NCBI GenBank assembly: GCA_020621985.1 | Contig: JAHRYS010000001.1 | Location: 186,001 to 250,000 of the forward strand | Reading direction: 5' to 3' | Length of the DNA stretch: 64,000 nucleotides | DNA from: Candidatus Ferrigenium altingense | GTDB lineage: Bacteria; Pseudomonadota; Gammaproteobacteria; Burkholderiales; Gallionellaceae | The notes under the pieces: generated by a model | The model's database searches: none | What the model was told of the DNA's origin: nothing | Seen by the model: only the letters and a program-made list of their open reading frames with translations | Shown: positions 1,320 to 46,756 of the stretch, piece after piece | Position numbering within the stretch: the stretch's first letter is position 1 | How the letters are laid out: each line of letters begins with the position of its first letter | Program-made: the position numbers and the translations under genes

Positions 1320-2207
1320 ATGAATAGCAATCTTCAATCCAGCGGCGGCCATGACCGTGAATTTGTATTCACGAGCAAGGATTTCGAACGGGTGCGGCAG
1401 TTGATCTATGACCATGCCGGCATTTCGCTTAACCCCTCCAAGCAGGATATGGTGTACAGCCGCTTGGCGCGCCGCCTGCGGGCAACCGGCATCAATAATT
1501 TCAAGGATTATCTGGCCTTGCTGGAAAGCAACAATGAAGCCGAGTGGCAGGCGTTTGTAAACTCGCTCACCACCAATCTGACTTCATTCTTTCGTGAACC
1601 GCACCATTTTCCGTTGCTGGCCGAACATGTGCTTAAACAAAAAGGGCGGCATCCCATTTCGCTGTGGTGCTCGGCGGCTTCAACCGGGGAAGAGCCCTAC
1701 TCGATGGCGATGACCATGGTGGATGCCTTCGGCAGTTTTACGCCGCCCGTTACCATCGTCGCGACTGATCTGGATACCAATGTGCTCGCCAAGGCGGAAG
1801 CCGGCGTTTATCCGGTCGAGCGTATTGAGAAACTTTCCGATGATGTGGTAAAGCGTTTCTTCCTCAGGGGGACGGGCGCGCAGGCGGGTTTTGTGCGGGT
1901 GAGACCGGAGTTGCGCGCGATGATTACTTTCCGGCAGGTGAATTTGCTCAGTGATGATTGGCATATACGCGGCCCGCTGGATGCGATTTTCTGCCGCAAT
2001 GTGATGATCTATTTCGACAAGACAACCCAGCTCAAGATATTGGAAAGGTTTGCGCCGCTATTGCAACCGGATGGCTTGTTGTTCGCCGGCCATTCGGAGA
2101 GTTTTCATAATGCCGGCCATGTATTCAGTTTGCGCGGCAAAACGGTGTACGAATTGGCCAAACCTAAACCGCATGGGCATCATCATGCCCATCACGCGCC
2201 AAAATAA
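1320..2207 (+). CDS. cheR: Chemotaxis protein methyltransferase CheR
   Basis: This enzyme uses S-adenosylmethionine to methylate glutamates on chemoreceptors, setting adaptation with CheB and CheD. The 295-residue protein has the N-terminal helical CheR domain (about 15-75, RLIYDHAGISL) and the methyltransferase domain (about 85-280). That domain contains NLTSFFRE, WCSAASTGEEPYSMAM (SAM binding) and the IFCRNVMIYFD block. The family length is about 270-290. The C-terminus is unusual in ending with a histidine-rich tail (HGHHHAHHAPK). The start ATG follows an AGGATG-like ribosome site. The gene lies 81 bases after the receptor gene and just before cheD. Confidence 0.97.
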   Translation: MNSNLQSSGGHDREFVFTSKDFERVRQLIYDHAGISLNPSKQDMVYSRLARRLRATGINNFKDYLALLESNNEAEWQAFVNSLTTNLTSFFREPHHFPLLAEHVLKQKGRHPISLWCSAASTGEEPYSMAMTMVDAFGSFTPPVTIVATDLDTNVLAKAEAGVYPVERIEKLSDDVVKRFFLRGTGAQAGFVRVRPELRAMITFRQVNLLSDDWHIRGPLDAIFCRNVMIYFDKTTQLKILERFAPLLQPDGLLFAGHSESFHNAGHVFSLRGKTVYELAKPKPHGHHHAHHAPK

Positions 2208-2240
2208 TCTTGGCGGGTGATCGAAAAGGAATGGCCCGGC

Positions 2241-2855
2241 ATGGCTGAACATGGTTTCGAAGAATTCCTGGCACCGAACCTGTATTTTGACCGGCTGCAT
2301 AACACCGAGGCAGCCAAGATAATGCCCGGCGAATATTATGCGACGGCGCGCGATATGTTGCTGGTGACGGTGCTCGGTTCATGCGTCTGCGCGTGCATAC
2401 GCGACAAGGTCAGCGGAATCGGCGGCATGAATCATTTCATGTTGCCGGATAACGGCCAGGATCAAAACAATCCGTTTGGTGAGTCGGCGCGCTATGGCAC
2501 TTATGCGATGGAAATATTGATTAACCAATTGCTCAAGATGGGCGCGAAGCGCAGTAACTTCGAGGTGAAAGTGTTCGGTGGCGGCGCAGTGTTGCGCGGT
2601 TTTACCGTCGCCAATGTCGGCGAAAAAAATGCCGAGTTTGTGCTGAAATTTCTCAAGACGGAAAAAATTCCCATTGCCGCGCAGGATTTGCTCGATATCT
2701 ATCCGCGCAAGGTATATTACTTTCCCCATACTGGCCTGGTCAGGGTAAAGAAACTGAAGCAAGTGCACAACGACACGATCATCACCCGCGAAACCGAATA
2801 CAGCACGCGCTTGCATTATTCGAAGATGGAAGGCGATGTGGAGTTGTTCGCTTAA
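2241..2855 (+). CDS. cheD: Chemoreceptor glutamine deamidase CheD
   Basis: CheD deamidates specific receptor glutamines to glutamates, which creates methylation sites, and it often binds the receptor tail. The [10 protein letters not shown] segment holds the catalytic cysteine and GGMNHFMLP holds the histidine, both diagnostic of the family. The C-terminal half carries [10 protein letters not shown]. The ATG at 2241 is preferred because AAAGGA lies 10 bases upstream. An in-frame GTG at 2217 would add eight residues. The gene sits between cheR and cheB, 23 bases before the latter. Confidence 0.95.
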
Positions 2856-2878
2856 AGATGGCTCGAATAAAGGCAGGC

Positions 2879-3967
2879 ATGGAAAACCGGAAAATAAGAG
2901 TGCTGGTGATTGACGATTCCGCGCTGATCCGCAGCGTGATGAAGGAGTTGATCGACCGGGAAAAGGATATGGAGTGCGTAGGGGCCGCGCCCGATCCGCT
3001 GGTGGCGCGCGAGATGATCAAGTCGCTCAATCCGGACGTGTTGACGCTGGATGTGGAAATGCCCAAGATGGACGGGCTGGACTTTCTGGAACGGCTGATG
3101 CGCTTGCGCCCGATGCCGGTGGTGATGGTTTCCACGCTGACGGAGCGCGGTTCCAATATCACTTTCCGCGCGCTGGAGTTGGGTGCGGTGGATTTCGTTT
3201 CCAAACCGAAATTGGATATCGCGCGCGGCATGGATGAATATGCCGGCCAGATCATCGATAAAATCCGCGCCGCTGCACAGGCGCGGGTGCGTAAAACTGC
3301 CGTCGCACCGTTAGTCCAGGAGAAGTTTTCTGCGGATGCAATTCTGCCCAGTGTCGCGGGACGGTATTCCTCCACGGAAAAACTGATCATCATCGGCGCG
3401 TCGACCGGCGGCACCGAAGCGATCAAGGAGGTGCTGGCCAGCCTGCCGGCCGATGTGCCGGGCATTCTGGTGACCCAGCATATGCCGGAAAATTTCACCA
3501 AGTCATTTGCGGAACGCCTGAACAGCCTGTGCAAGATTTCAGTCAAGGAAGCGGAGCATAACGAGCGCATCCTGCCGGGCCACGCCTACATCGCGCCGGG
3601 GCACTCGCATCTGCTGCTCAAGCGCAGCGGGGCGAACTATATGACCGAACTGAACCAGGGGCCGCCGGTGAACCGTCATCGCCCGTCGGTGGATGTGTTG
3701 TTCCGCTCGGCGGCCAATGTCGCCGGTGCGAATGCGCTGGGGATCATTCTTACCGGCATGGGCAAGGATGGCGCGCAAGGCTTGCTGGAAATGAAGCAAG
3801 CCGGTTCGCATACCATCGCGCAAGACGAGGCGAGTTGCGTGGTTTTCGGCATGCCCAGGGAGGCGATTGCGGTAGGCGGTGCAAGCGAAGTGCTGCCGTT
3901 GCAGAATATCGCGCGCCGTACGCTGGAATATCTGGCATCGCACAGCGGCAAGGGCAATCGCGTTTAA
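2879..3967 (+). CDS. cheB: Chemotaxis response regulator protein-glutamate methylesterase CheB
   Basis: CheB removes methyl groups from receptors when phosphorylated by CheA. The receiver domain (about 1-125) shows Asp12/Asp13, phospho-acceptor Asp58, Thr86 and Lys109. After a linker, the methylesterase domain (about 165-355) shows [10 protein letters not shown] (nucleophile Ser), TQHMPENF (His) and [12 protein letters not shown] (Asp), so the catalytic triad is intact. The start at 2879 is favoured because AAAGG precedes it by five bases and the protein then begins like other CheB proteins ([16 protein letters not shown]). An in-frame ATG at 2858 would add seven residues but has a poor ribosome site. 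It is the last of the cheR-cheD-cheB run. Confidence 0.96.
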
Positions 3968-3991: not shown

Positions 3992-4303
3992 ATGGCTATT
4001 AATGTACAAATTCTGGATCGGGCGGGGCGTATCAATATGCATGGCCGTTTCGATTTTCAGGTGCATCGCGAATTCAAGGAGGCCTATACGCCGCTGCTCG
4101 ATAATCCTGCCGTGCGCGAGATCGAGGTCGAAATGAGCAAGGTGGATTATCTGGACAGCTCCGCGCTGGGCATGTTGATGCTGCTGAATGAACGCGCCAA
4201 GGCGGTCAACAAGCCGGTCACGCTGCTCAATACTTCCGGCGTGGTGTCGCAGGTGCTGGGAGTCGCCAATTTCAGCAAGATTTTCAATATCAAGCAGGCA
4301 TAG
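3992..4303 (+). CDS. STAS-domain anti-sigma factor antagonist
   Basis: This 103-residue protein is a single STAS domain of the SpoIIAA/RsbV type. The motif VDYLDSSALGMLMLL around residues 51-65 contains the serine pair where such proteins are phosphorylated by an RsbW-type kinase and dephosphorylated by a PP2C phosphatase. The next gene encodes a protein with both activities, so the two form a self-contained partner-switching pair. By analogy with Pseudomonas HsbA, which binds the anti-sigma factor FlgM, this protein may act on FlgM (encoded at 15491-15805). That partner is inference. The ribosome site AGGGAG precedes the ATG. Confidence 0.9.
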   Translation: MAINVQILDRAGRINMHGRFDFQVHREFKEAYTPLLDNPAVREIEVEMSKVDYLDSSALGMLMLLNERAKAVNKPVTLLNTSGVVSQVLGVANFSKIFNIKQA

Positions 4304-4349
4304 CAGGGGTACGGCGCGTTGTGCCCCCGCAGGTGAATAACGAACGGCT

Positions 4350-6857
4350 ATGCGATTAAATCTGCCCGTCTCCAACATCGAATTTTCATTGCCGGACGGG
4401 GTGATCATTGTCACCAAAACCGATCTCAAGGGTGTCATTACCTACTGCAATCAAGCGTTCGTCGAAATAAGCGGGCGCAGCCGCGAGGAAATTATCGGCG
4501 CGCCGCACAATGTCGTGCGCCATCCCGATATGCCGCCCGAGGCGTTTGCCGATTTATGGAAAACCATTAAAGCCAACAAACCCTGGCAGGGGATCGTCAA
4601 AAACCGGCGCAAGGATGGCAGCTTCTACTGGGCGGTATCCAATGTCACCCCGCTGCTGGAAAAGGGCAAAGCCATCGGCTATGTCGCGTTCCGTTACAAG
4701 GCCACACAAGAGCAAATCGAGTCAGCCTCGGCCGTTTACCGGGAAATCCGCGAGGGGTCGCGCAAGCTGCGCATCGAGGAAGGCAATGTCATCCGGGTAA
4801 AGAGCCCGCTGCTGCACTGGTTGAGCGTCGCCAGCGTCAAAGCCCGGTTGTTTGCGCTCATCTTCATCCTGCTCGGCGCGCTGGTCGTGACCGGCATTTT
4901 CAATCTGTATGAAACCGAAAAAGCCCACGAACGCACTATGGAGGGGTTGGCAACCGCCAGTGTGCAAGCCTACGCGCTGACAACTGCGCGCAGCGCGGAG
5001 TCGGTTTTCAAGGAGCAGCGGCATGCGTGGAAGAATATTTTAATCCGTGGCCGCAATGCAGCTTTATATAAGCAACACCTCAAGGAATTCGACCAGCGAG
5101 GGGAGGAGGTCGAGCAAATACTGGCAGGGCAGTTAATCCCGATCATGCAACAAATCGGCTTACCCACCGATGAGGTCGATGCGTTGCTGGAAACACATAT
5201 CCTGCTGAACAAGGAATATCGCTCGGCATTGGGATTCGGTAAAGCGTCAAAATTGGAAAATATTCCTGCTCTCGATGCTCTGTCCAAGGGAGTCGATCAG
5301 CAAATAACCGGGCAGTTCAACGCGATCATTGCAACGATCCGGGAAGCGCAACTTCACAGCCTGGGGGATTTGAATGAAGCGCTGGAAAAGTCCCATAACG
5401 ACCAAAGCGATCGTTCCGCCGCGATATTGGTTGCGTTCGCGCTGGGCGGGCTGGTTTTATCCATCTGGTTCATCGTCGGCATCTTGAGGCCGATACGCCG
5501 CGCCAGCAGCAATCTGGACAGGGTGGTGCAACTGCAACAGCAGTTCCTCGAAAAAATCCTGGTGCTCGAGGAATATCACGATCGCATCGATGAGGAACAG
5601 CGCATCGGCAGCTACATCATGGGACATATTACCAACGTCCACGGCACGCTGGACCCGCTTATCCGGCATCTCATCCGGCCGGCGGAACATTTGAGTGGCG
5701 ACATGCTGCTCGCGGCGCGCACGCCGGACGATGCGCTGCATATTCTGCTGGCCGATGCGGTAGGCCATGGGCTGGTTGCAGCCGTCAATGTATTGCCGCT
5801 CAGCCAGACGTTTTATGCCATGACCGAAAAGGGGTTCCGCATTGCCCAGATCGCGGAAGAGCTGAATCTGAAAATTAACCGGTTCATGCCGGTGGATCGT
5901 TTCGTCGCGGCTACATTGATTTCAGTCAATGTGCGCAATCGTGTTATTGAAGTATGGAACGGCGGCAACCCCGCGCCTCTGCTGGTCAATAAAAATGGAA
6001 AGATTCTGCACGAATGGGAATCCACTAATCTGCCGCTGGGCATATTGCCGGGTGAAAGTTTTTCCGGAAAACCGGAGGCTTTTCAATATGAAGAGAATTG
6101 CCGCTTGTGCCTGTTTTCGGACGGTTTGCCGGAGGCCGAATCCCCGCTGGGCGAGCCGTTCGGCAAAGAGCGGATTCGGAGATTGTTGCAAGACAGCGAG
6201 CCAAAGGGCCGGTTCGAAAATCTGGTGAACCTGTTGGATTCGCATCTGGCTGGACAGCAGGCGCATGACGATATTTCGTTGGCGATGGTCGAGATTCCAA
6301 CCTATCTTCGCACGGAGCCGGCTCCGGCTGCCCATGCGCCTATTCAGGCGATGCCGGCAGGCGGCAGCAATTGGAAAATCGAGATCAGCCTCGGCGCCGC
6401 CGAGCTGAAATACCTAAATATCGTTCCGATGCTGACCGGCATCATCGAAAAAATCCATGTAACCAGCGAATTTGCCGCGCCGTTATTCATGATCTTGTCC
6501 GAGCTGTTCAATAACGCGCTGGATCACGGCATTCTGCGGCTTGATTCCGCTATCAAGCATGGGGCAGACGGGTTTGATAAATTTCTTCAATTGCGCGATG
6601 AGCGCCTGCATGCGCTTGATAACGGGAAAATCGGCCTTGAGATCGAGAAGGTGGTGATCGAGGGGAAATATGGCGTGAAAATCCGGGTTGCCGACAGCGG
6701 GAACGGGTTTGATTATGCGGCAATGTTGGCGAATGCCGAAAACGCTGTTAAACAGGGCCAGCATGGGCGCGGCATTACGCTGGTGGAAAGCATGGCTTAT
6801 AAACTCGAGTTTGCGGGCAACGGGAGCGAGGTTACCGCGTACTACATTTGCGCCTAA
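4350..6857 (+). CDS. Membrane sensor: Aer-like PAS, SpoIIE-type PP2C phosphatase and RsbW-type ATPase fusion
   Basis: This 835-residue multidomain protein begins with a PAS domain (about 12-125) that closely resembles the FAD-binding PAS of the aerotaxis receptor Aer. It shares TDL-ITY-N-AFVE-SG, VRHPDMP with Arg57, His58 and Asp60, and GIVKNRRKDG. Two membrane helices (about 167-187 and 357-379) enclose about 165 probably periplasmic residues. The PP2C/SpoIIE domain (about 420-655) has SGDM, LLADAVGHG, NGGNPAP, FSDGLPEA and HDDISLAMV. The last 145 residues form a GHKL ATPase with SELFNNALDHG, VADSGNGF and GRGITLVESM. It probably phosphorylates and dephosphorylates the adjacent STAS protein in response to redox state. 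It resembles HsbR with an Aer input domain. The domain calls are firm; the function is inferred. Confidence 0.92.
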   Translation: MRLNLPVSNIEFSLPDGVIIVTKTDLKGVITYCNQAFVEISGRSREEIIGAPHNVVRHPDMPPEAFADLWKTIKANKPWQGIVKNRRKDGSFYWAVSNVTPLLEKGKAIGYVAFRYKATQEQIESASAVYREIREGSRKLRIEEGNVIRVKSPLLHWLSVASVKARLFALIFILLGALVVTGIFNLYETEKAHERTMEGLATASVQAYALTTARSAESVFKEQRHAWKNILIRGRNAALYKQHLKEFDQRGEEVEQILAGQLIPIMQQIGLPTDEVDALLETHILLNKEYRSALGFGKASKLENIPALDALSKGVDQQITGQFNAIIATIREAQLHSLGDLNEALEKSHNDQSDRSAAILVAFALGGLVLSIWFIVGILRPIRRASSNLDRVVQLQQQFLEKILVLEEYHDRIDEEQRIGSYIMGHITNVHGTLDPLIRHLIRPAEHLSGDMLLAARTPDDALHILLADAVGHGLVAAVNVLPLSQTFYAMTEKGFRIAQIAEELNLKINRFMPVDRFVAATLISVNVRNRVIEVWNGGNPAPLLVNKNGKILHEWESTNLPLGILPGESFSGKPEAFQYEENCRLCLFSDGLPEAESPLGEPFGKERIRRLLQDSEPKGRFENLVNLLDSHLAGQQAHDDISLAMVEIPTYLRTEPAPAAHAPIQAMPAGGSNWKIEISLGAAELKYLNIVPMLTGIIEKIHVTSEFAAPLFMILSELFNNALDHGILRLDSAIKHGADGFDKFLQLRDERLHALDNGKIGLEIEKVVIEGKYGVKIRVADSGNGFDYAAMLANAENAVKQGQHGRGITLVESMAYKLEFAGNGSEVTAYYICA

Positions 6858-7019: not shown

Positions 7020-8168
7020 ATGGCAGAAGACAGCGACCTAGAAAAAACCGAACAGCCCTCACAGAGGAAGCTTGACCAGGCAAGGGAAAAAGGCCAGGTT
7101 GCGCGCTCACGTGAGTTGTCCACGTTTGCGGTATTGCTGGCGGGTGGCGGTGTCCTGTGGTTCATGGGGGCATCGCTCACCCAGCACATGGTAAAGCTGT
7201 TGCATGATGGTCTGACGCTTGACCGGGAACTGGCATTCAACCCCGACCTGATGATCCCGCGTTTGTATGATCTTTCGCTGGACGCATTAATCACATTTTT
7301 CCCCTTTTTGCTCGTGGTCATGATTGCCGCGGCATTCTCTCCGTTGTTGTTGAACGGCTGGCTGTTCAGTCTCCAGGCGCTGCAACCGAAATTTTCCAAG
7401 CTGAACCCGGTTTCCGGCATTGCTCGCATGTTCTCCGGAACTGCGCTGGTGGAGTTGGCCAAGGCGATTGGCAAGGCTACGCTGGTGGGCGGTGTCGCAG
7501 CATGGGTGATCTGGAGCAACAAGGATGCGGTGATGGCGCTCGGCATGCAGGCCACCGCTGCCTCGATCCCGCAAATTGGGCACTTGGTCGGCGCAAGTTT
7601 CATGACGATCGCCGGCGCGATGCTGCTGATTGTAGCCATCGATGTGCCGTTCCAGTTGTGGGATCACAACAAGAAGCTGATGATGACCAAGGAAGAGGTG
7701 CGCCAGGAATCCAAGGAAACCGAAGGCGATCCGATGGTCAAGGGGCGTATCCGCAGCCTGCAACGCGAGGCGGCACGCCGCCGCATGATGGCGGCGATCC
7801 CGGCTGCCGATGTGGTGGTGACCAACCCGACGCACTATGCGGTGGCACTGAAGTACGGCGACAAGGGTATGAGCGCGCCGGTGGTAGTGGCGAAGGGCTC
7901 GCATCTGCTGGCGTTGCGCATCCGCGAAATCGCCGAGGAAAATCACGTGCCGATCCTGGAAGCGCCGCCGCTGGCGCGCGCGCTGCACAAGCATACCGAT
8001 CTGGGCGAATCCATTCCGGAAGCGCTGTACACCGCTGTCGCCGAAGTGCTGGCCTACGTTTACCAGTTGCATCGCTACGAAAAACAAGGCGGGGCGCGCC
8101 CGCAGGAGCCGAAGCATTTGCCGGTGCCGGTTGATTTGGATCCGGCCGCCGCCCCGGCTGCCGCATGA
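7020..8168 (+). CDS. flhB: Flagellar type III export apparatus protein FlhB
   Basis: FlhB is the substrate-specificity switch of the flagellar secretion gate. The N-terminal part has four hydrophobic helices (about 30-55, 85-115, 140-165 and 180-205). The cytoplasmic domain carries the autocleavage motif NPTH (VVVTNPTHYAVALKYGD, about residues 268-284), where cleavage between Asn and Pro allows the switch from rod/hook to filament substrates. The 382-residue length is normal. The Pro/Ala-rich tail after about 360 is variable in the family. It opens the flhB-flhA-flhF-flhG-fliA-motCD run and lies 11 bases before flhA. Confidence 0.97.
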   Translation: MAEDSDLEKTEQPSQRKLDQAREKGQVARSRELSTFAVLLAGGGVLWFMGASLTQHMVKLLHDGLTLDRELAFNPDLMIPRLYDLSLDALITFFPFLLVVMIAAAFSPLLLNGWLFSLQALQPKFSKLNPVSGIARMFSGTALVELAKAIGKATLVGGVAAWVIWSNKDAVMALGMQATAASIPQIGHLVGASFMTIAGAMLLIVAIDVPFQLWDHNKKLMMTKEEVRQESKETEGDPMVKGRIRSLQREAARRRMMAAIPAADVVVTNPTHYAVALKYGDKGMSAPVVVAKGSHLLALRIREIAEENHVPILEAPPLARALHKHTDLGESIPEALYTAVAEVLAYVYQLHRYEKQGGARPQEPKHLPVPVDLDPAAAPAAA

Positions 8169-8179
8169 AGAGCTGAATT

Positions 8180-10264
8180 ATGAACCTGCTGCTATTGCAA
8201 AACTTTATCAAGCGCGCCGGACTGGCCGGTATGGCCGGCCCGGTGCTGATCGTGATGATTCTGGCGATGATGGTGCTGCCGTTGCCGCCGTTGCTGCTGG
8301 ATATTTTGTTCACTTTCAATATCGCGATTTCCATCATGGTGTTGCTGGTCAGCATGAACACCAACAAGGCGCTGGATTTTGCGATATTCCCTACCGTGCT
8401 GCTGATTACCACGTTGTTGCGCCTGTCGCTGAATGTGGCTTCCACGCGGATCGTGCTGATGGAAGGCCACACCGGGCCGGATGCGGCGGGCAAGGTGATC
8501 GAGTCGTTCGGCCATTTTCTGGTAGGCGGCAACTATGCCGTCGGCCTGGTGGTGTTTGCGATCCTGGTGATTATCAACTTCGTGGTGATCACCAAAGGCG
8601 CCGGGCGTATCGCCGAAGTGGGCGCGCGTTTTACCCTGGATGCGATGCCCGGCAAGCAAATGGCGATCGATGCCGATTTGAATGCGGGGCTGATCGGCGA
8701 AGACGTGGCGCGCAAGCGCCGTGCCGAGGTTGCGCAGGAAGCCGACTTCTACGGCGCGATGGACGGCGCCAGCAAATTCGTGCGCGGCGATGCGGTCGCG
8801 GGCATCATCATTTTGTTCATCAACATCATCGGCGGCCTGATCATCGGTGTGCTGCAGCACGACCTCGATATTGCCACCGCCGCCAAATACTATACCTTGC
8901 TGACTATCGGCGACGGGCTGGTGGCGCAAATTCCGGCGCTGGTGATTTCCACTGCCGCCGGCCTGGTGGTGAGCCGCGTTGCCAGCGACCAAAACATCGG
9001 CCAGCAACTAAGCCAGCAACTGTTCAAGCAGCCGCAGGTCATCATGCTGACCGCCACGATTATCGGCGCAATGGGCCTGATTCCCGGCATGCCGCACTTC
9101 GCCTTTTTGCTGCTGGCCGGCGCGATGGCGTGGCTGGCTTATTACCTGACGCAAAAGAGCGCGCAAGCGGCCGAACAGGAACAGGCTGCCGTTGCGGAGA
9201 CACCGGTTATCGCGGAATCCACAGAAGCGAGATGGGAGGATGTCGAGCAGGTCGACGTGCTGGGGCTGGAGGTGGGCTACCGGCTGATCGCATTGGTGGA
9301 CAAGGCGCAAGATGGTGACTTGTTGCGCCGCATCAAAGGCATCCGCAAAAAATTCACCCAAGATATCGGCTTTTTGCCGCCGGCAGTGCATATTCGCGAC
9401 AATCTGGACTTGCGCCCGAACGGTTACCGCATCACGCTCAAGGGGGTGGAGGTCGGCAGCGGCGAGGCCTATCCGAATATGTTGCTGGCGATCAATCCGG
9501 GCAGCGTGACGGGTGAGTTGGCCGGCATGCAGACGCGCGACCCGGCCTTCGGTCTGCCCGCAGTCTGGATTGACAGCGTGTTGCGCGACCAGGCGCAGGT
9601 CATGGGTTACACCGTGGTTGATCCGGGCACGGTCGTGGCGACCCATCTGAGCCACCTGCTTAGCACGCGTTCCGCAGAGCTGCTCGGGCGGCAAGAGGTG
9701 CAGCAATTGCTCGATCATATCGGCAAAGTTTCGCCCAAGCTGGTTGAAGACCTGGTGCCCAAGACATTGCCGCTGGGCGTGGTGCAGAAGGTGCTGCAAA
9801 ACCTGCTGGAAGAAGGCATGCACATCCGCGATATGCGCACCATCGTGGAAACGCTGGCAGAAAATGCGCCGCGTACCCAGGATGCCTACCAGCTCACAGC
9901 GCTGGTGCGTGTCGCGCTCGGCCCGGCCATTGTGCAGCAGTTCTACCCGTCTGCGCAGGAGTTGCAGGTGATCGGTATGGACAAGGAACTGGAATACCTG
10001 CTGATCCAGGCGATGCAATCCAGCCAGAACGGTATCGGCATCGAGCCGGGGTTGGCCGACACCGTGCTGCGCGAAACCCGCGTCGCGGCCGAGACGCAGG
10101 AACAGATGGGCTTGCCGGCAGTGATGCTGGTGCCGGCGCAGTTGCGCGATTTGCTGGCGCGCTTCCTGAAGCGCGCAGTGCCGAATATCAGAGTGATTTC
10201 GCATGATGAAGTACCGGACTTCAAAACTATCCGGGTGACTGCAATGGTAGGAGGTAGAGCATGA
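8180..10264 (+). CDS. flhA: Flagellar type III export apparatus protein FlhA
   Basis: FlhA forms the nonameric export gate ring that receives substrate-chaperone complexes. The 694-residue protein has about eight transmembrane helices in the first 330 residues and the conserved FHIPEP-family cytoplasmic loop (IAEVGARFTLDAMPGKQMAID, in the 150-175 region). The large C-terminal cytoplasmic domain follows from about residue 350. The length matches the family. Its stop codon overlaps the flhF start in an ATGA, which suggests translational coupling. Confidence 0.98.
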   Translation: MNLLLLQNFIKRAGLAGMAGPVLIVMILAMMVLPLPPLLLDILFTFNIAISIMVLLVSMNTNKALDFAIFPTVLLITTLLRLSLNVASTRIVLMEGHTGPDAAGKVIESFGHFLVGGNYAVGLVVFAILVIINFVVITKGAGRIAEVGARFTLDAMPGKQMAIDADLNAGLIGEDVARKRRAEVAQEADFYGAMDGASKFVRGDAVAGIIILFINIIGGLIIGVLQHDLDIATAAKYYTLLTIGDGLVAQIPALVISTAAGLVVSRVASDQNIGQQLSQQLFKQPQVIMLTATIIGAMGLIPGMPHFAFLLLAGAMAWLAYYLTQKSAQAAEQEQAAVAETPVIAESTEARWEDVEQVDVLGLEVGYRLIALVDKAQDGDLLRRIKGIRKKFTQDIGFLPPAVHIRDNLDLRPNGYRITLKGVEVGSGEAYPNMLLAINPGSVTGELAGMQTRDPAFGLPAVWIDSVLRDQAQVMGYTVVDPGTVVATHLSHLLSTRSAELLGRQEVQQLLDHIGKVSPKLVEDLVPKTLPLGVVQKVLQNLLEEGMHIRDMRTIVETLAENAPRTQDAYQLTALVRVALGPAIVQQFYPSAQELQVIGMDKELEYLLIQAMQSSQNGIGIEPGLADTVLRETRVAAETQEQMGLPAVMLVPAQLRDLLARFLKRAVPNIRVISHDEVPDFKTIRVTAMVGGRA

Positions 10265-11709
10265 GCATCAGAAAATTCATCGCCCCGACAACACGCCAGG
10301 CAATGAAGGAGATTCGCGACGAGCTTGGCCCCGACGCGATGATCCTGTCGAACCGGCAGACTGAGCGGGGTGTAGAGATCGTTGCCATCGCGAATGGCGA
10401 CTTCGCCCATCTGACTACCGGCGCCGCCGCGCAAAAAACCGAGTGGCCTGAGATAACGGCGGACGAATGGACAAAGTCAGTCGAGGAAGATCATTTTGTG
10501 CAACCGGTCAGGCCATTGGCTCAAGCCGGGCCATCAATTCAGCCCAGGCAGCCGCTCCAGTTCCAGCACAAGGCTGCCGAACCAGCCGGATCGTCGCAGC
10601 ATTCCGGGCCGTTGCACCTGTCCGGCGCTTTGCGGCACCCAGGGAAGTTGCCGCAGCCTGAGCACGCGCCGCAAGCCAGAACTGCGCCGCAGGCTAACTC
10701 CATCCGGCCGGCCGAGGCGCAGCCTGGGCCGGCCATGTCCAAAAAAGAGAATTCAGCGCAAGAAAATTCAGGGCAAGAAAATATTCTCAGTGAGATCAAG
10801 TCAATGAGCGCCATGCTGCAGCAGCAGTTTGCGGCGCTGTACTGGAACGATGTGCAACTGCGCGATCCGCAGCGTGCCGGCCTGTTGCGCAAAATGCTCA
10901 ATGCCGGATTCAGCACGTTACTGGCGCGCCAGTTGCTGGACAAGATGCCCGCCGGGGAAGTGCAGGGCGAGTCATGGATAAAACAGGTATTCAAGCGCAA
11001 TTTGCAGGTGGCGGGCAAGGCGGACGACATTATCGCCAAGGGCGGGGTGTACGCGCTGATCGGGCCGACCGGCGTGGGAAAAACCACCACCACAGCCAAG
11101 CTGGCGGCGCGTGCGGTGGTGCGTTACGGCGCGGACAAGGTGGCGTTGCTGACGACCGACAGTTACCGGATTGCCGCTTACGAACAGCTCAAGATTTATG
11201 GAAAGATACTCGGCGTGGCGGTGCATGCGGTGAAGGACACCGATGATTTGCGCCTGACGCTTTCCGCATTGCGCCACAAGCATCTGGTGCTGATCGATAC
11301 GGTGGGGATGGGGCAGCGCGATGAGCGCGTCGGCGACCAGAACGAGATGTTCGATGCGACCGGCGTGCAGTGCTTGCTGTTGCTGAACGCCACCAGCGGC
11401 GGCGATACGCTGGAAGATGTGGTGCGCATGTATCGCAGCAATAAAGTGGTCGGTTGCATTCCCACCAAGCTGGACGAGGCGGTCAATCTCGGCACGGTAC
11501 TGGATGTGGCGGTGCGCCATCGCCTGGTGATGCACTACATGGCCAACGGCCAGCGTGTGCCGGAAGATTTGCACCCGATCAATCTCGACTATATGTTGCA
11601 CCGCGCGCTCAAACCGGCGGAGGAAAAAACCCCGTTTACTCTGCGCGAACTGGATTTCCCGGTATTGATGGCGAATGCGCCGGGCAAGGAGATGTCCTGT
11701 GCGCTCTGA
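10261..11709 (+). CDS. flhF: Flagellar biosynthesis GTPase FlhF
   Basis: FlhF is an SRP-family GTPase that sets the polar site and number of flagella. The N-terminal B domain (ISKFIAP-like start, RDELGPDAMILSN) is followed by a long, poorly conserved Gln/Pro-rich linker (about 65-175). The helical N region and the G domain come next, with P-loop GPTGVGKTTTTAKLA (about residue 265), the TTDSYRIAAYEQL switch, IDTVGMGQRD and PTKLDEA. The C-terminus extends about 30 residues beyond the G domain. It overlaps flhA at its start and flhG at its end, so the three are probably co-translated. Confidence 0.97.
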   Translation: MSIRKFIAPTTRQAMKEIRDELGPDAMILSNRQTERGVEIVAIANGDFAHLTTGAAAQKTEWPEITADEWTKSVEEDHFVQPVRPLAQAGPSIQPRQPLQFQHKAAEPAGSSQHSGPLHLSGALRHPGKLPQPEHAPQARTAPQANSIRPAEAQPGPAMSKKENSAQENSGQENILSEIKSMSAMLQQQFAALYWNDVQLRDPQRAGLLRKMLNAGFSTLLARQLLDKMPAGEVQGESWIKQVFKRNLQVAGKADDIIAKGGVYALIGPTGVGKTTTTAKLAARAVVRYGADKVALLTTDSYRIAAYEQLKIYGKILGVAVHAVKDTDDLRLTLSALRHKHLVLIDTVGMGQRDERVGDQNEMFDATGVQCLLLLNATSGGDTLEDVVRMYRSNKVVGCIPTKLDEAVNLGTVLDVAVRHRLVMHYMANGQRVPEDLHPINLDYMLHRALKPAEEKTPFTLRELDFPVLMANAPGKEMSCAL

Positions 11710-12637
11710 CGGCGGGGCGGATCAGGCAGAAGGCCTGCGGCGCCTGCTGGTACTCAACCAGACGCAGGTGATCACCGTGGTGGCCGGCAAAGCCGGGGTG
11801 GGACGCACCAGCGCGACCATCAATCTTGCGGCGGCATTGGCACGCTCCGGCAAGGACGTGCTGGTGCTGGATGAAAATCATGGGCCGAATAATTTGCTGG
11901 ATCGCATCGGGTTGTCCGCCAAGCATGATTTGCTGGATGTCGCGCAGGGAAAATACGGGCTTTGCGAGGCGATCAACACCACCAACGGATTTGGCATATT
12001 GTCGACCGCGCGCGCCATGCAGGCATTGGCGAAACTGGATCAGGCCGCGCAACAGCGGCTGGAAAATGCGCTGACTGAGGCCAGCGACGGTGCGGATGTG
12101 GTGCTGGTGGATGCCGCGTTGTCTGCGCTGGGCCAAGCCGAAGGACTGGCCGGAAAATCTGCGGCAGTATTGCCGAGCCTGGCAAGCGGAGCTGCGTTGC
12201 TGGTGCTGGTTGATGCTACTCCCAGCGGCATTACCGAGAGCTATGCCTTGATTAAGCGGCTGGCGCTGAAGAATGCGCGCCAACAGTTCGGGATTGCGGT
12301 AAACAGGGCGGGCAATGAGAAGGCAGCGATGACGGTGTTTGAAAACATGGCCAAGGTCGCCCGGCGCAACCTCTCGGTGCGTTTGGAGTATTTGGGCTAT
12401 ATCCCGCCCGACGAAAGACTCAAATGTGCGATGCAGTTGGGGAAATCGGTGGTCGAAGCCTTTCCAGACGCTGCTTCGGCGAAATCCTATCTGGAACTGT
12501 CGCAAAAATTGCTGTATTTGCCAATGCAGCGGGATGAAGCGAAGGGCGGTATATCCGCTATCATACAAAACCTGATGAGGCAGGTGTCACAACCGGCCGT
12601 CCTGACACGGTATTGCGAAGCATCCGGCGCGGGGTGA
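11699..12637 (+). CDS. flhG: MinD-like ATPase FlhG (FleN)
   Basis: FlhG is a MinD/ParA-type ATPase that limits flagellar number by stimulating FlhF GTPase activity. A deviant Walker A, VVAGKAGVGRTSATINLA, starts about residue 25; the usual KGGVGKT is here KAGVGRT, which retains the catalytic lysine. LVLDENHGPNNLL and VLVDAALSALG give the switch and Walker B regions. The GTG at 11699 is preferred because AAGGAG lies eight bases upstream. It overlaps flhF by 11 bases. An upstream in-frame ATG at 11675 lacks a comparable ribosome site. The position between flhF and fliA is typical. Confidence 0.94.
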   Translation: MRSDGGADQAEGLRRLLVLNQTQVITVVAGKAGVGRTSATINLAAALARSGKDVLVLDENHGPNNLLDRIGLSAKHDLLDVAQGKYGLCEAINTTNGFGILSTARAMQALAKLDQAAQQRLENALTEASDGADVVLVDAALSALGQAEGLAGKSAAVLPSLASGAALLVLVDATPSGITESYALIKRLALKNARQQFGIAVNRAGNEKAAMTVFENMAKVARRNLSVRLEYLGYIPPDERLKCAMQLGKSVVEAFPDAASAKSYLELSQKLLYLPMQRDEAKGGISAIIQNLMRQVSQPAVLTRYCEASGAG

Positions 12638-12731: not shown

Positions 12732-13442
12732 ATGTACACGGCCACCGGATTAAACGACAAGGAGCAATGCCTGCGGGAACATTCCCATCTGGTGAAACGG
12801 CTTGCGCATCAGATGATGTCCAGGCTGCCTTCCAGCGTGCAGGTTGACGACATTATCCAGGCCGGCATGATGGGTTTGCTGGATGCGGCAAGCCGCTACG
12901 ACGAATTTCACGGCGCGCAGTTTGAGACTTATGCGACGCAACGCATTCGCGGCGCGATGCTGGACGAGCTGCGTGAAGCGGATTGGCTGCCGCGCAGCCT
13001 GCGCCGCGATATGCGGCGCATCGAAGTGTCCGTCAGCCGCATGCAGCAGAAACTGGGCAGGCCGCCTAGTGAAACTGAAATCGCCGCAGATATGGAAGTG
13101 CCCCTCGCCGAATACCAGCAGATGCTGCAGGTATCGCGCGGTGCGCAGTTGGTATATTACGAAGATTTTCATAGTGAGGACGAGGAAGATTTTTTCGAGC
13201 GCTTCGATCTCGGCGATGATGCCAGCCCGCTGGATTTGCTTGAGGACGAGCGTTTCAAGGCCGAGTTGGTGCGTGCGATCGAAAATTTGCCGGAGCGCGA
13301 GCGCATGTTGATGGGCATGCTTTACGAGCAAGAGATGAACCTGCGCGAAATCGGCGAGGTGCTGGGCGTGGGCGAATCGCGCGTTTCGCAGTTGCATAGC
13401 CAGGCGGTTGCGCGGTTGCGCAGCTCGATGAAAGGCTATTGA
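12732..13442 (+). CDS. fliA: RNA polymerase sigma-28 factor FliA
   Basis: FliA directs transcription of late flagellar genes and is held by FlgM until the hook is complete. The 236-residue protein has region 2 (VKRLAHQMMSRLP, DDIIQAGMMGLLDAASRYD, TYATQRIRGAMLDELR), region 3 (about 80-130) and region 4 (LPERERMLMGMLYEQ, LREIGEVLGVGESRVSQL helix-turn-helix). The C-terminal residues RLRSSM are typical. Two promoters in this window, before flgM and before flgK, match the sigma-28 consensus and are its likely targets. Its stop overlaps the motC start (TGATG). Confidence 0.98.
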   Translation: MYTATGLNDKEQCLREHSHLVKRLAHQMMSRLPSSVQVDDIIQAGMMGLLDAASRYDEFHGAQFETYATQRIRGAMLDELREADWLPRSLRRDMRRIEVSVSRMQQKLGRPPSETEIAADMEVPLAEYQQMLQVSRGAQLVYYEDFHSEDEEDFFERFDLGDDASPLDLLEDERFKAELVRAIENLPERERMLMGMLYEQEMNLREIGEVLGVGESRVSQLHSQAVARLRSSMKGY

Positions 13443-15490: not shown

Positions 15491-15805
15491 TTAAGCCCTG
15501 CTGCCAATCAGGTCGCGTACCGTATCAAGCAGACGGCCGGCAACGGCTTCCGGGTTGACCCTGAAACGGCCCTCGCTGATGGCTTGCTTGATTTCCGCAA
15601 CTTTAGCCGCATTCACAACCGGGGTGTTCGCCATGCTGCTTTCCATGCTGTGCAACTGCGTCGCTGCAGAGCCGAGCGAAACGCTGGTGTCGCTGCGCTG
15701 TGCCGCTGCGGGCATCGGGCTGGATCTTCCCTTGGCTGCGGCTTGCGCCACACCTTCCCCTGCCCCGCTGGCGGGTAACGGCTTGCTTGGTTTGTCGATT
15801 TTCAC
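15491..15805 (-). CDS. flgM: Anti-sigma-28 factor FlgM
   Basis: FlgM binds FliA and is exported through the completed hook, releasing late gene expression. The 104-residue protein has a disordered Pro/Ala-rich N-terminal half and the conserved C-terminal FliA-binding helices (VNAAKVAEIKQAISEGRFRV, VAGRLLDTVRDLI, about 63-100). The gene is preceded by a strong sigma-28 promoter, which gives the feedback usual for flgM. It may also be the partner of the STAS protein at 3992-4303, by analogy with HsbA-FlgM in Pseudomonas (inference). Confidence 0.94.
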   Translation of the reverse strand: MKIDKPSKPLPASGAGEGVAQAAAKGRSSPMPAAAQRSDTSVSLGSAATQLHSMESSMANTPVVNAAKVAEIKQAISEGRFRVNPEAVAGRLLDTVRDLIGSRA

Positions 15806-46241: not shown

Positions 46242-46478
46242 TTATAACGGCACAGAATCGTCATAAAGCGTTTCGGGCGATATGTCGATTTCCCCCGGCC
46301 AGATCACTGTCCCATAAGCGACTGCCGCACGATGAAACAATTGTTCGGCGGCAATGCGGTTCCAAGGGCGCATGGTCAGCAAAGGACGCATATCAAAACG
46401 CCGCTGTTCGCCATTTTTGAAATCCAGCTCTAGCTGAAAGTCAGGTGTGGTTTTAACTTTCACAACATCAAGCAGCAT
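46242..46478 (-). CDS. DUF2442-family small protein
   Basis: This 78-residue protein has the DUF2442 pattern: DVVKVKTTPDFQLELDFKNG, FDMRPLL, VAYGTVIWPGEIDISPETLY. Proteins of this kind are often encoded beside DUF4160 proteins, as here (nine-base spacing). Such pairs look like toxin-antitoxin modules but their function is not established. More A+T-rich than the neighbouring purine genes. Confidence 0.8.
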   Translation of the reverse strand: MLLDVVKVKTTPDFQLELDFKNGEQRRFDMRPLLTMRPWNRIAAEQLFHRAAVAYGTVIWPGEIDISPETLYDDSVPL

Positions 46479-46486
46479 TTTTCACC

Positions 46487-46756
46487 TCACTGGAGCGGAG
46501 CAATTCTGAACGGGTCTTCACCATTAACGGCCAATTCCCAATCCACCATCAATTCTTCTTTGTGAATTTCTATCCAAGCCTGAACCATCTTGAGTTGTTT
46601 TGGTGGAATTTTCCCATCCAAAATACTGCCGTCATCAATCAATATTGCAGCCTCGTCATCCTGATAGCGAACATGAATATGCGGAAGATGATGCCGCCGA
46701 TTGTCACGGTAGAACATCAAAACCAAGATGCCGTAAAACATGCTGATCGTCGGCAT
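46487..46756 (-). CDS. DUF4160-family small protein
   Basis: This 89-residue protein has the DUF4160 signature: PTISMFYGILVLMFYRDNRR then HHLPHIHVRYQDDEAAILID and GKIPPKQLKMVQAWIEIHKE then ELMVDWELA. It forms a tight pair with the DUF2442 gene downstream. The pair plus a membrane protein sits between purH and purD, where many relatives have nothing. Function unknown. Confidence 0.82.
   Translation of the reverse strand: MPTISMFYGILVLMFYRDNRRHHLPHIHVRYQDDEAAILIDDGSILDGKIPPKQLKMVQAWIEIHKEELMVDWELAVNGEDPFRIAPLQ

Follow-up and report, generated by a model that had tools for sequence, protein, structure and literature searches.

Candidatus Ferrigenium altingense carries, within a 64,000-nucleotide stretch of its genome (GenBank assembly GCA_020621985.1, contig JAHRYS010000001.1, positions 186,001 to 250,000; G000:C3:186001-250000 in our labelling, hereafter the window), a gene for an 835-residue enzyme preceded by a gene for a small STAS protein. 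The assembly amounts to 2.18 Mb and is 81% complete. Judged by its sequence, this enzyme is a partner-switch enzyme of the HsbR/CrsR type whose receiver domain has probably been exchanged for the sensory half of an Aer-type chemoreceptor. We propose that it would be driven by redox state and would act via the STAS protein on the anti-sigma factor FlgM; taken as a whole, this proposal has in our view an even chance of being right.

The enzyme is encoded at 4350..6857 of the forward strand and the STAS protein (103 residues) at 3992..4303 of the same strand, where a preliminary description of the window had also placed the two reading frames. From the N terminus, and always on the forward strand, the enzyme comprises an Aer-type PAS domain (residues 13-120, 4386..4709), a first transmembrane (TM) helix (residues about 165-186, 4842..4907), a predicted periplasmic segment of about 170 residues (187-356, 4908..5417), a second TM helix (residues about 357-380, 5418..5489), a presumably helical linker (385-430, 5502..5639), a SpoIIE-type PP2C phosphatase domain (459-649, 5724..6296) and a GHKL kinase domain (695-830, 6432..6839). 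At the N terminus, Pfam gives PAS at 51.9 bits (13-113) and PAS_3 at 54.0 bits (31-113, cut-off 25.6). SpoIIE scores 120.4 bits over 459-649 (cut-off 25) and HATPase_c_2 32.8 bits over 695-830 (cut-off 27.4), and no HAMP, MCP signalling or receiver (Response_reg) domain is matched in the enzyme at E up to 1. The linker can be aligned to receiver-type relatives and is conserved in the orthologues. Twelve full-length orthologues, 58-93% identical, were found, and the window enzyme is, as far as its sequence tells, free of signs of decay.

Both TM helices are hydropathy predictions, flanked by Lys and Arg on their presumed inner side. The first is found in 12 of 12 scorable orthologues and the second in 13 of 13, one of the 13 proteins having unread letters. 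Because the two hydrophobic helices enclose about 170 residues, the predicted topology is that of a receptor, with a cytosolic PAS, a periplasmic segment and a cytosolic output. Hence, the membrane insertion first described for this protein holds, and its single anchor gives way to two helices around a long segment. As a 4HB_MCP_1 domain, this segment reaches 15.1 bits (residues 162-258), below the cut-off of 27, and the assignment was rejected.

The PAS domain is closest to that of Aer. By sequence, its nearest solved structures are those of Aer (31cj, E 1.6e-39; 8dik, E 2.6e-37), followed by 3ewk and NifL (2gj3). The segments VRHPDMP (R57, H58, D60), AFVEISG and GIVKNRRK run in step with the Aer numbering, in agreement with the motifs read in the preliminary description. 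Among the flavin contacts named for Aer (PMC9668731), H53, R57, W70, N85 and R115 are present in the window enzyme and kept in all 17 switch proteins with an Aer-type PAS; the same paper rates H53 and R115 as somewhat uncommon among flavin PAS domains. For Aer, reduction to the semiquinone has been reported near -290 mV. Elsewhere in the pocket, D60 is kept in 16 of the 17, and M69 is replaced by Leu in 14. The PAS of the switch enzyme therefore appears to have an Aer-type flavin pocket and would bind flavin adenine dinucleotide (FAD).

On the output side, both active-site sets proposed at first reading are complete. The PP2C residues D451, D469, D591, D640 and D641 and the GHKL residues E718/N722, D782/G784/G786 and G806/R807/G808 are all present in the window enzyme. 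When 39 PP2C-GHKL cores are compared, D451, D469, D640 and D641 are kept in all, as are E718, G784, G786 and G808; N722, D782 and G806 are kept in 38, and so is D591, replaced by Asn in L063. This last protein (L063:3610-5709), a switch enzyme with a TM-HAMP head, also has Ser at the place of G472 and is perhaps a weak phosphatase.

The exchange of the head is read from relatives of the enzyme. Three samples were used. The core is carried, with E no higher than 1e-60, by 25 of the 61 genomes in the GTDB genus; with E no higher than 1e-30, by 83 (own included) of 369 genomes of the class; and, again with E no higher than 1e-60, by 84 (own included) of 399 genomes of the order. N-termini were read at the best 29 class-level loci outside the own genome and at the best 28 order-level loci outside the genus, against a receiver profile built from the 19 receiver-side rows of the core tree described below, three of the 28 (G073, G091 and G094) being rows of that tree too. 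The hunt for Aer-type PAS domains on PP2C thus started from the PP2C-GHKL core and not from the PAS. In relatives, the place held by the window enzyme, between cheR-cheD-cheB-STAS and flhB...fliA, is taken by a receiver-PP2C-GHKL enzyme of the HsbR/CrsR layout. Heads of the PAS-TM-periplasmic-TM kind occur in 13 of the 25 genus genomes with the core (own included), so that the search across genomes for the order Aer PAS, TM, PP2C, HATPase suggested by the preliminary description does find it. The Ca. Ferrigenium MAGs KS03 and BP06 are carriers of the fused gene. PAS heads devoid of TM helices are carried by four genes in three genomes, TM-HAMP heads devoid of PAS by one gene in each of three genomes, and receiver heads are found in eight genomes. 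The retrieved stretch includes flhB for 23 of the 28 enzyme genes and reaches a contig end for three; the other two, both of G024, lie elsewhere.

In the tree of 39 cores, 20 with PAS and/or TM heads stand on one side (branch support 100/99) and 19 stand opposite, 18 of which have a Pfam receiver match. This tree is midpoint-rooted, has no outgroup and contains long receiver branches; the direction of the change, from receiver to PAS head, is therefore read from how widely the receiver form is distributed. At class level, 28 of the best 29 loci start with a receiver and one with neither a receiver nor an Aer-type PAS. All 28 order-level loci start with a receiver and have a STAS gene within 1.5 kb flanks. 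Altogether, 56 of these 57 loci outside the group have a receiver and none an Aer-type PAS.

The enzyme itself aligns with two kinds of protein. Its core is about 30-45% identical to those of receiver-type relatives, and residues 1-393 match, at 43% identity, a chemoreceptor frame (G009:C5:126558) that encodes a 946-residue protein with PAS, HAMP (375-421) and MCP signalling domains. With residues 141-470 as query, residues 141-394 align at 30% identity to that chemoreceptor (L096:4899-7739), extending about 20 residues into its HAMP domain. Of four comparisons with receiver-type enzymes, three show likeness from residues 378, 381 and 391 onwards, and the remaining one shows it weakly from 354. 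From these limits on either side, the fusion point is placed at the inner end of the second TM helix, at about residues 378-394, with loss of the remaining HAMP. Since the receiver form occupies the same place in relatives and residues 1-393 match a chemoreceptor, the receiver was probably replaced by the PAS-TM-periplasmic-TM half of an Aer-PAS chemoreceptor, once, in the Gallionella/Ferrigenium group. The heads observed would be most simply explained by one replacement, after which the new head was trimmed. The idea that an Aer input is wired directly to a partner switch, already put forward for this locus, thus fits the anatomy of the protein (a PAS fused to a complete PP2C-GHKL, with a STAS partner) as well as its evolution, a receiver-bearing form of the enzyme being found at the same place.

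These heads also bear on what is sensed. The periplasmic segment could be the part that senses a ligand, with the FAD-bearing PAS being structural. The TM-periplasmic part is indeed retained in 13 genomes and three relatives retain TM-HAMP heads without PAS; however, four relatives retain the PAS without TM helices and all 17 proteins compared preserve the flavin-pocket residues, and we hold this alternative to be very improbable. If the PAS is instead the sensor, as we prefer, its FAD would report, from the cytosolic face of the membrane, how oxidised or reduced the respiratory chain is, the periplasmic segment perhaps adding a second input. Via the second TM helix and the linker, the signal would reach the PP2C dimer and shift the balance between the phosphatase, dephosphorylating Ser56 of the STAS protein, and the GHKL domain, phosphorylating it. 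Unphosphorylated STAS would then bind FlgM and free FliA. Flavin binding, signal polarity, phosphotransfer and FlgM as the target are the parts of this scheme that we infer. In PP2C switches generally, sensor heads, PAS and receiver domains among them, are thought to act on the phosphatase dimer via a dimeric coiled linker, and to be exchangeable because they all do so (PMC12143880).

The presumed phospho-substrate is the protein encoded just upstream. As first described, it is a lone STAS protein with a serine pair: it matches STAS_2 (51.9 bits, cut-off 29.2) and TIGR00377 (54.1 bits, cut-off 53.45), of the anti-sigma-factor antagonist type, and the Ser56-Ser57 codons lie at 4157-4162 of the forward strand. 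Ser56 itself (4157..4159, in DSSALG) bears the same residue number as the phosphosite of HsbA (PMC6482189). Orthologues of the STAS protein, 79-97% identical, stand beside the enzyme in eight other genomes of the same architecture. The linkage of this domain order to STAS, expected in the preliminary description, is thus seen in nine of the 13 genomes and not in the other four. Within one clade, loci L055-L058 and L097-L100 show that the che genes, STAS included, have parted from the flh genes, which retain the enzyme. Two STAS matches occur in the own genome, that of the window and one in a 418-residue frame, as do two SpoIIE matches. The second SpoIIE protein (L083:8082-9215, on G000:C3), 30% identical across 216 residues, pairs a receiver with a PP2C, lacks a kinase domain and was set aside as part of another system.

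As for the output, a route via FlgM and FliA is plausible by analogy with Pseudomonas HsbA, from the gene neighbourhood and from co-occurrence. In Pseudomonas, HsbA releases FliA by binding FlgM when it is unphosphorylated, and when phosphorylated its partners are HsbR and the cyclase HsbD (PMC6482189, PMC5085249). FlgM is found in 23 of the 25 genus genomes with the core vs. 15 of the 36 without it (Fisher p 5e-5). Adding 24 genomes of the order, in which the core was judged from at most nine scored candidates per genome, gives 30 of 32 vs. 26 of 53. The flgM gene lies within 15 kb of the core in 16 of 23 genomes, 28 kb away in one and on another contig in six.

RpoS, the other sigma factor known from such systems, was rejected as a target. 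With the RpoS model, the cut-off of 378.7 bits is reached in none of the 25 group genomes (the own genome being 81% complete) and in one control genome; all 25 have weaker matches, at best 275.7 bits, as for other sigma factors. Absence from any single genome is to be read with the incompleteness of some assemblies in mind. Because the RpoS model passes in 0 of 25, FlgM/FliA is the known target still present. The same result bears on a CrsR-like arrangement in which the GHKL domain would itself be an anti-sigma factor holding a sigma factor, possibly FliA, until STAS displaces it. RpoS is bound by the third domains of CrsR and HsbR (PMC6482189), and in Shewanella the genes for CrsR and CrsA share the che1 locus with those for CheR1, CheD1 and CheB1 (PMC9855816). 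With no RpoS passing in the group and FlgM already there for FliA, we nevertheless judge this arrangement improbable.

Several observations weigh against the output, and the history, that we prefer. Two genomes, G024 and G033, carry the enzyme and have no FlgM match in assemblies 82% and 79% complete, and neither enzyme of G024 has flhB nearby. The co-occurrence is what a flagellar role would predict; however, the flagellated state alone would yield much of the same, and the counts, taken from related genomes, are not independent and may merely reflect the possession of flagella. A scan for sigma-28 promoters was not enriched (32 matches vs. 29.6 expected by shuffling), and Shewanella CrsR/CrsA targets RpoS rather than FlgM (PMC9855816, PMC6482189). 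Among the cores, L081, a row of another family counted with the receivers, has no receiver match. Finally, STAS is unlinked from the enzyme in G008, G016, G017 and G042, which form one clade, and is found there elsewhere, beside cheB (81-89% identical). Since STAS sits among che genes, a chemosensory target is possible. The switch could then be redox-driven, with STAS acting on a diguanylate cyclase or on a part of the chemosensory array, such that redox would set attachment and not sigma-28 output. This would agree with STAS remaining with cheB where the enzyme has moved (L097-L100), with a receiver-receiver-GGDEF protein encoded directly 3' of the receiver-type enzyme in three of eight group genomes (L067:10815-12104, L077:8341-9660, L078:8368-9657) and with the binding of phosphorylated HsbA to the cyclase HsbD (PMC5085249, PMC6482189). 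The window enzyme, in contrast, is followed by flhB and not by a cyclase, and we regard this possibility as rather unlikely.

The surroundings of the two genes are those of a chemotaxis and flagellar run. The window begins with a chemoreceptor gene, probably truncated by the window start, followed by cheR, cheD and cheB (1320..3967, forward, in an order conserved in relatives), STAS and the enzyme gene. Gaps of only 24 bp between cheB and STAS and of 46 bp between STAS and the enzyme gene suggest that the three share one operon. The position beside flagellar genes is as first described: 162 bp downstream of the enzyme gene begins a flagellar block from flhB to motD, with flhB, flhA, flhF and a MinD-like ATPase (7020..12637, forward), fliA for sigma-28 (12732..13442, forward; NF005413, 297.7 bits, cut-off 201), motC and motD. 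In flhG place, the ATPase is presumably FlhG, the models matched being MinD below their cut-offs; the gene that we take to be motC matches MotA_ExbB in Pfam. Beyond motD, on the opposite strand, lie flgN, flgM and flgA. The proposed final target, flgM (15491..15805, reverse; PF04316, 58.3 bits, cut-off 25), belongs to the same flagellar block and is 8.6 kb from the enzyme gene, not adjacent to it. A PADLOC scan for anti-phage systems gave no match, and an anti-phage role was dropped on this ground. Farther along, small neighbouring genes with DUF2442 and DUF4160 occupy 46242-46756 of the reverse strand.

Where the new head came from can be considered from these loci. An Aer-PAS receptor gene adjoins cheR in eight of them (L064-L067, L077, L078, L097 and L098), and the donor could therefore have been a neighbouring receptor gene. 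Switch and receptor PAS domains form separate groups in the PAS tree (support 91/93, below the star of the tool), which does not name the donor. Its 19 receptor rows include E. coli Aer and the pair L071/L105, which is one gene entered twice also among the 18 chemoreceptor rows of the PAS comparison, one copy being cut at its start. In two genomes, G058 and G009, two PP2C-GHKL enzymes with TM-HAMP and Aer-PAS heads flank one STAS gene (L061:6867-11310 and L062:10403-14983), a possible two-input control of one STAS. In a fuller scenario, which we put forward tentatively and hold to be somewhat doubtful, a chemoreceptor of the operon would have given its whole sensory half to the operon's output enzyme, bypassing CheA/Hpt and the receiver. 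FAD redox would then set STAS phosphorylation, FlgM and finally flagella, and genomes with two enzymes would take a two-input decision on motility.

If our proposal is true, the redox state of the cell may govern whether flagella get built, beyond the direction of swimming. Gallionella-type iron oxidisers form bands in opposing gradients of O2 and Fe(II). Motility in cultures of Sideroxydans ES-1 and Gallionella ES-2 is described as variable and tied to no growth phase (PMC3770913); a redox-gated sigma-28 switch would be a direct and testable cause of this. For PP2C phosphatases, sensor domains have been proposed to be exchanged across linkers (PMC12143880); the enzyme would provide a natural example, with the old head in some members of a single genus and the new head in others at the same locus. 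A PAS ahead of PP2C is already known from RsbP and Rv1364c; the features that seem new are a receptor half of Aer type, the membrane topology that it brings, and the location of the fusion among flagellar and chemotaxis genes, where both heads occur at one locus. Among the papers listed by a literature search, with most subscription journals outside its scope, there was no account of an Aer-type PAS on PP2C nor of a partner switch in Gallionella, and the terms PP2C, partner switch, sigma factor, FlgM and Gallionella are absent from the accessible text of a 2026 review on aerotaxis (PMC13401364).

Among known systems, E. coli Aer, the aerotaxis receptor, shares the N-terminal FAD-PAS sequence and pocket residues, whereas the window enzyme has no HAMP or MCP signalling domain, has a long periplasmic segment and ends in a phosphatase/kinase output. 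RsbP of B. subtilis and Rv1364c also place a PAS ahead of PP2C in a partner switch, and Rv1364c, whose PP2C is by sequence the closest of those with a solved structure (3ke6, E 0.0023), has a kinase domain too. Both proteins are soluble, and the PAS of neither is known to be of Aer type. Rv1364c carries its STAS fused at the C terminus, in contrast to the separate upstream gene of the window, and both serve the general stress response (PMC12143880). In Shewanella oneidensis, CrsR-CrsA with Che1/Aer2 is alike in that a receiver-PP2C-GHKL enzyme and a STAS protein are encoded with cheR, cheD, cheB and a PAS chemoreceptor, Aer2so (PMC9855816, PMC6482189); there, however, the receptor is a separate heme-PAS protein binding CheA1, and the target is RpoS. 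HsbR-HsbA-FlgM of Pseudomonas aeruginosa likewise has a PP2C-GHKL enzyme and a lone STAS with Ser56, near cheR and flgA-flgM-flgN (PMC5085249). The receiver-receiver-GGDEF proteins that follow the enzymes of L067, L077 and L078 recall its HsbD, which works with HsbA. HsbR has a receiver fed by HptB where the window enzyme has its membrane Aer-PAS receptor half. In its motifs, then, the window enzyme matches HsbR/CrsR in PP2C, in GHKL and in the nearby Ser56 STAS and departs from them in the receiver, and we therefore class it as a variant of the HsbR/CrsR switch.

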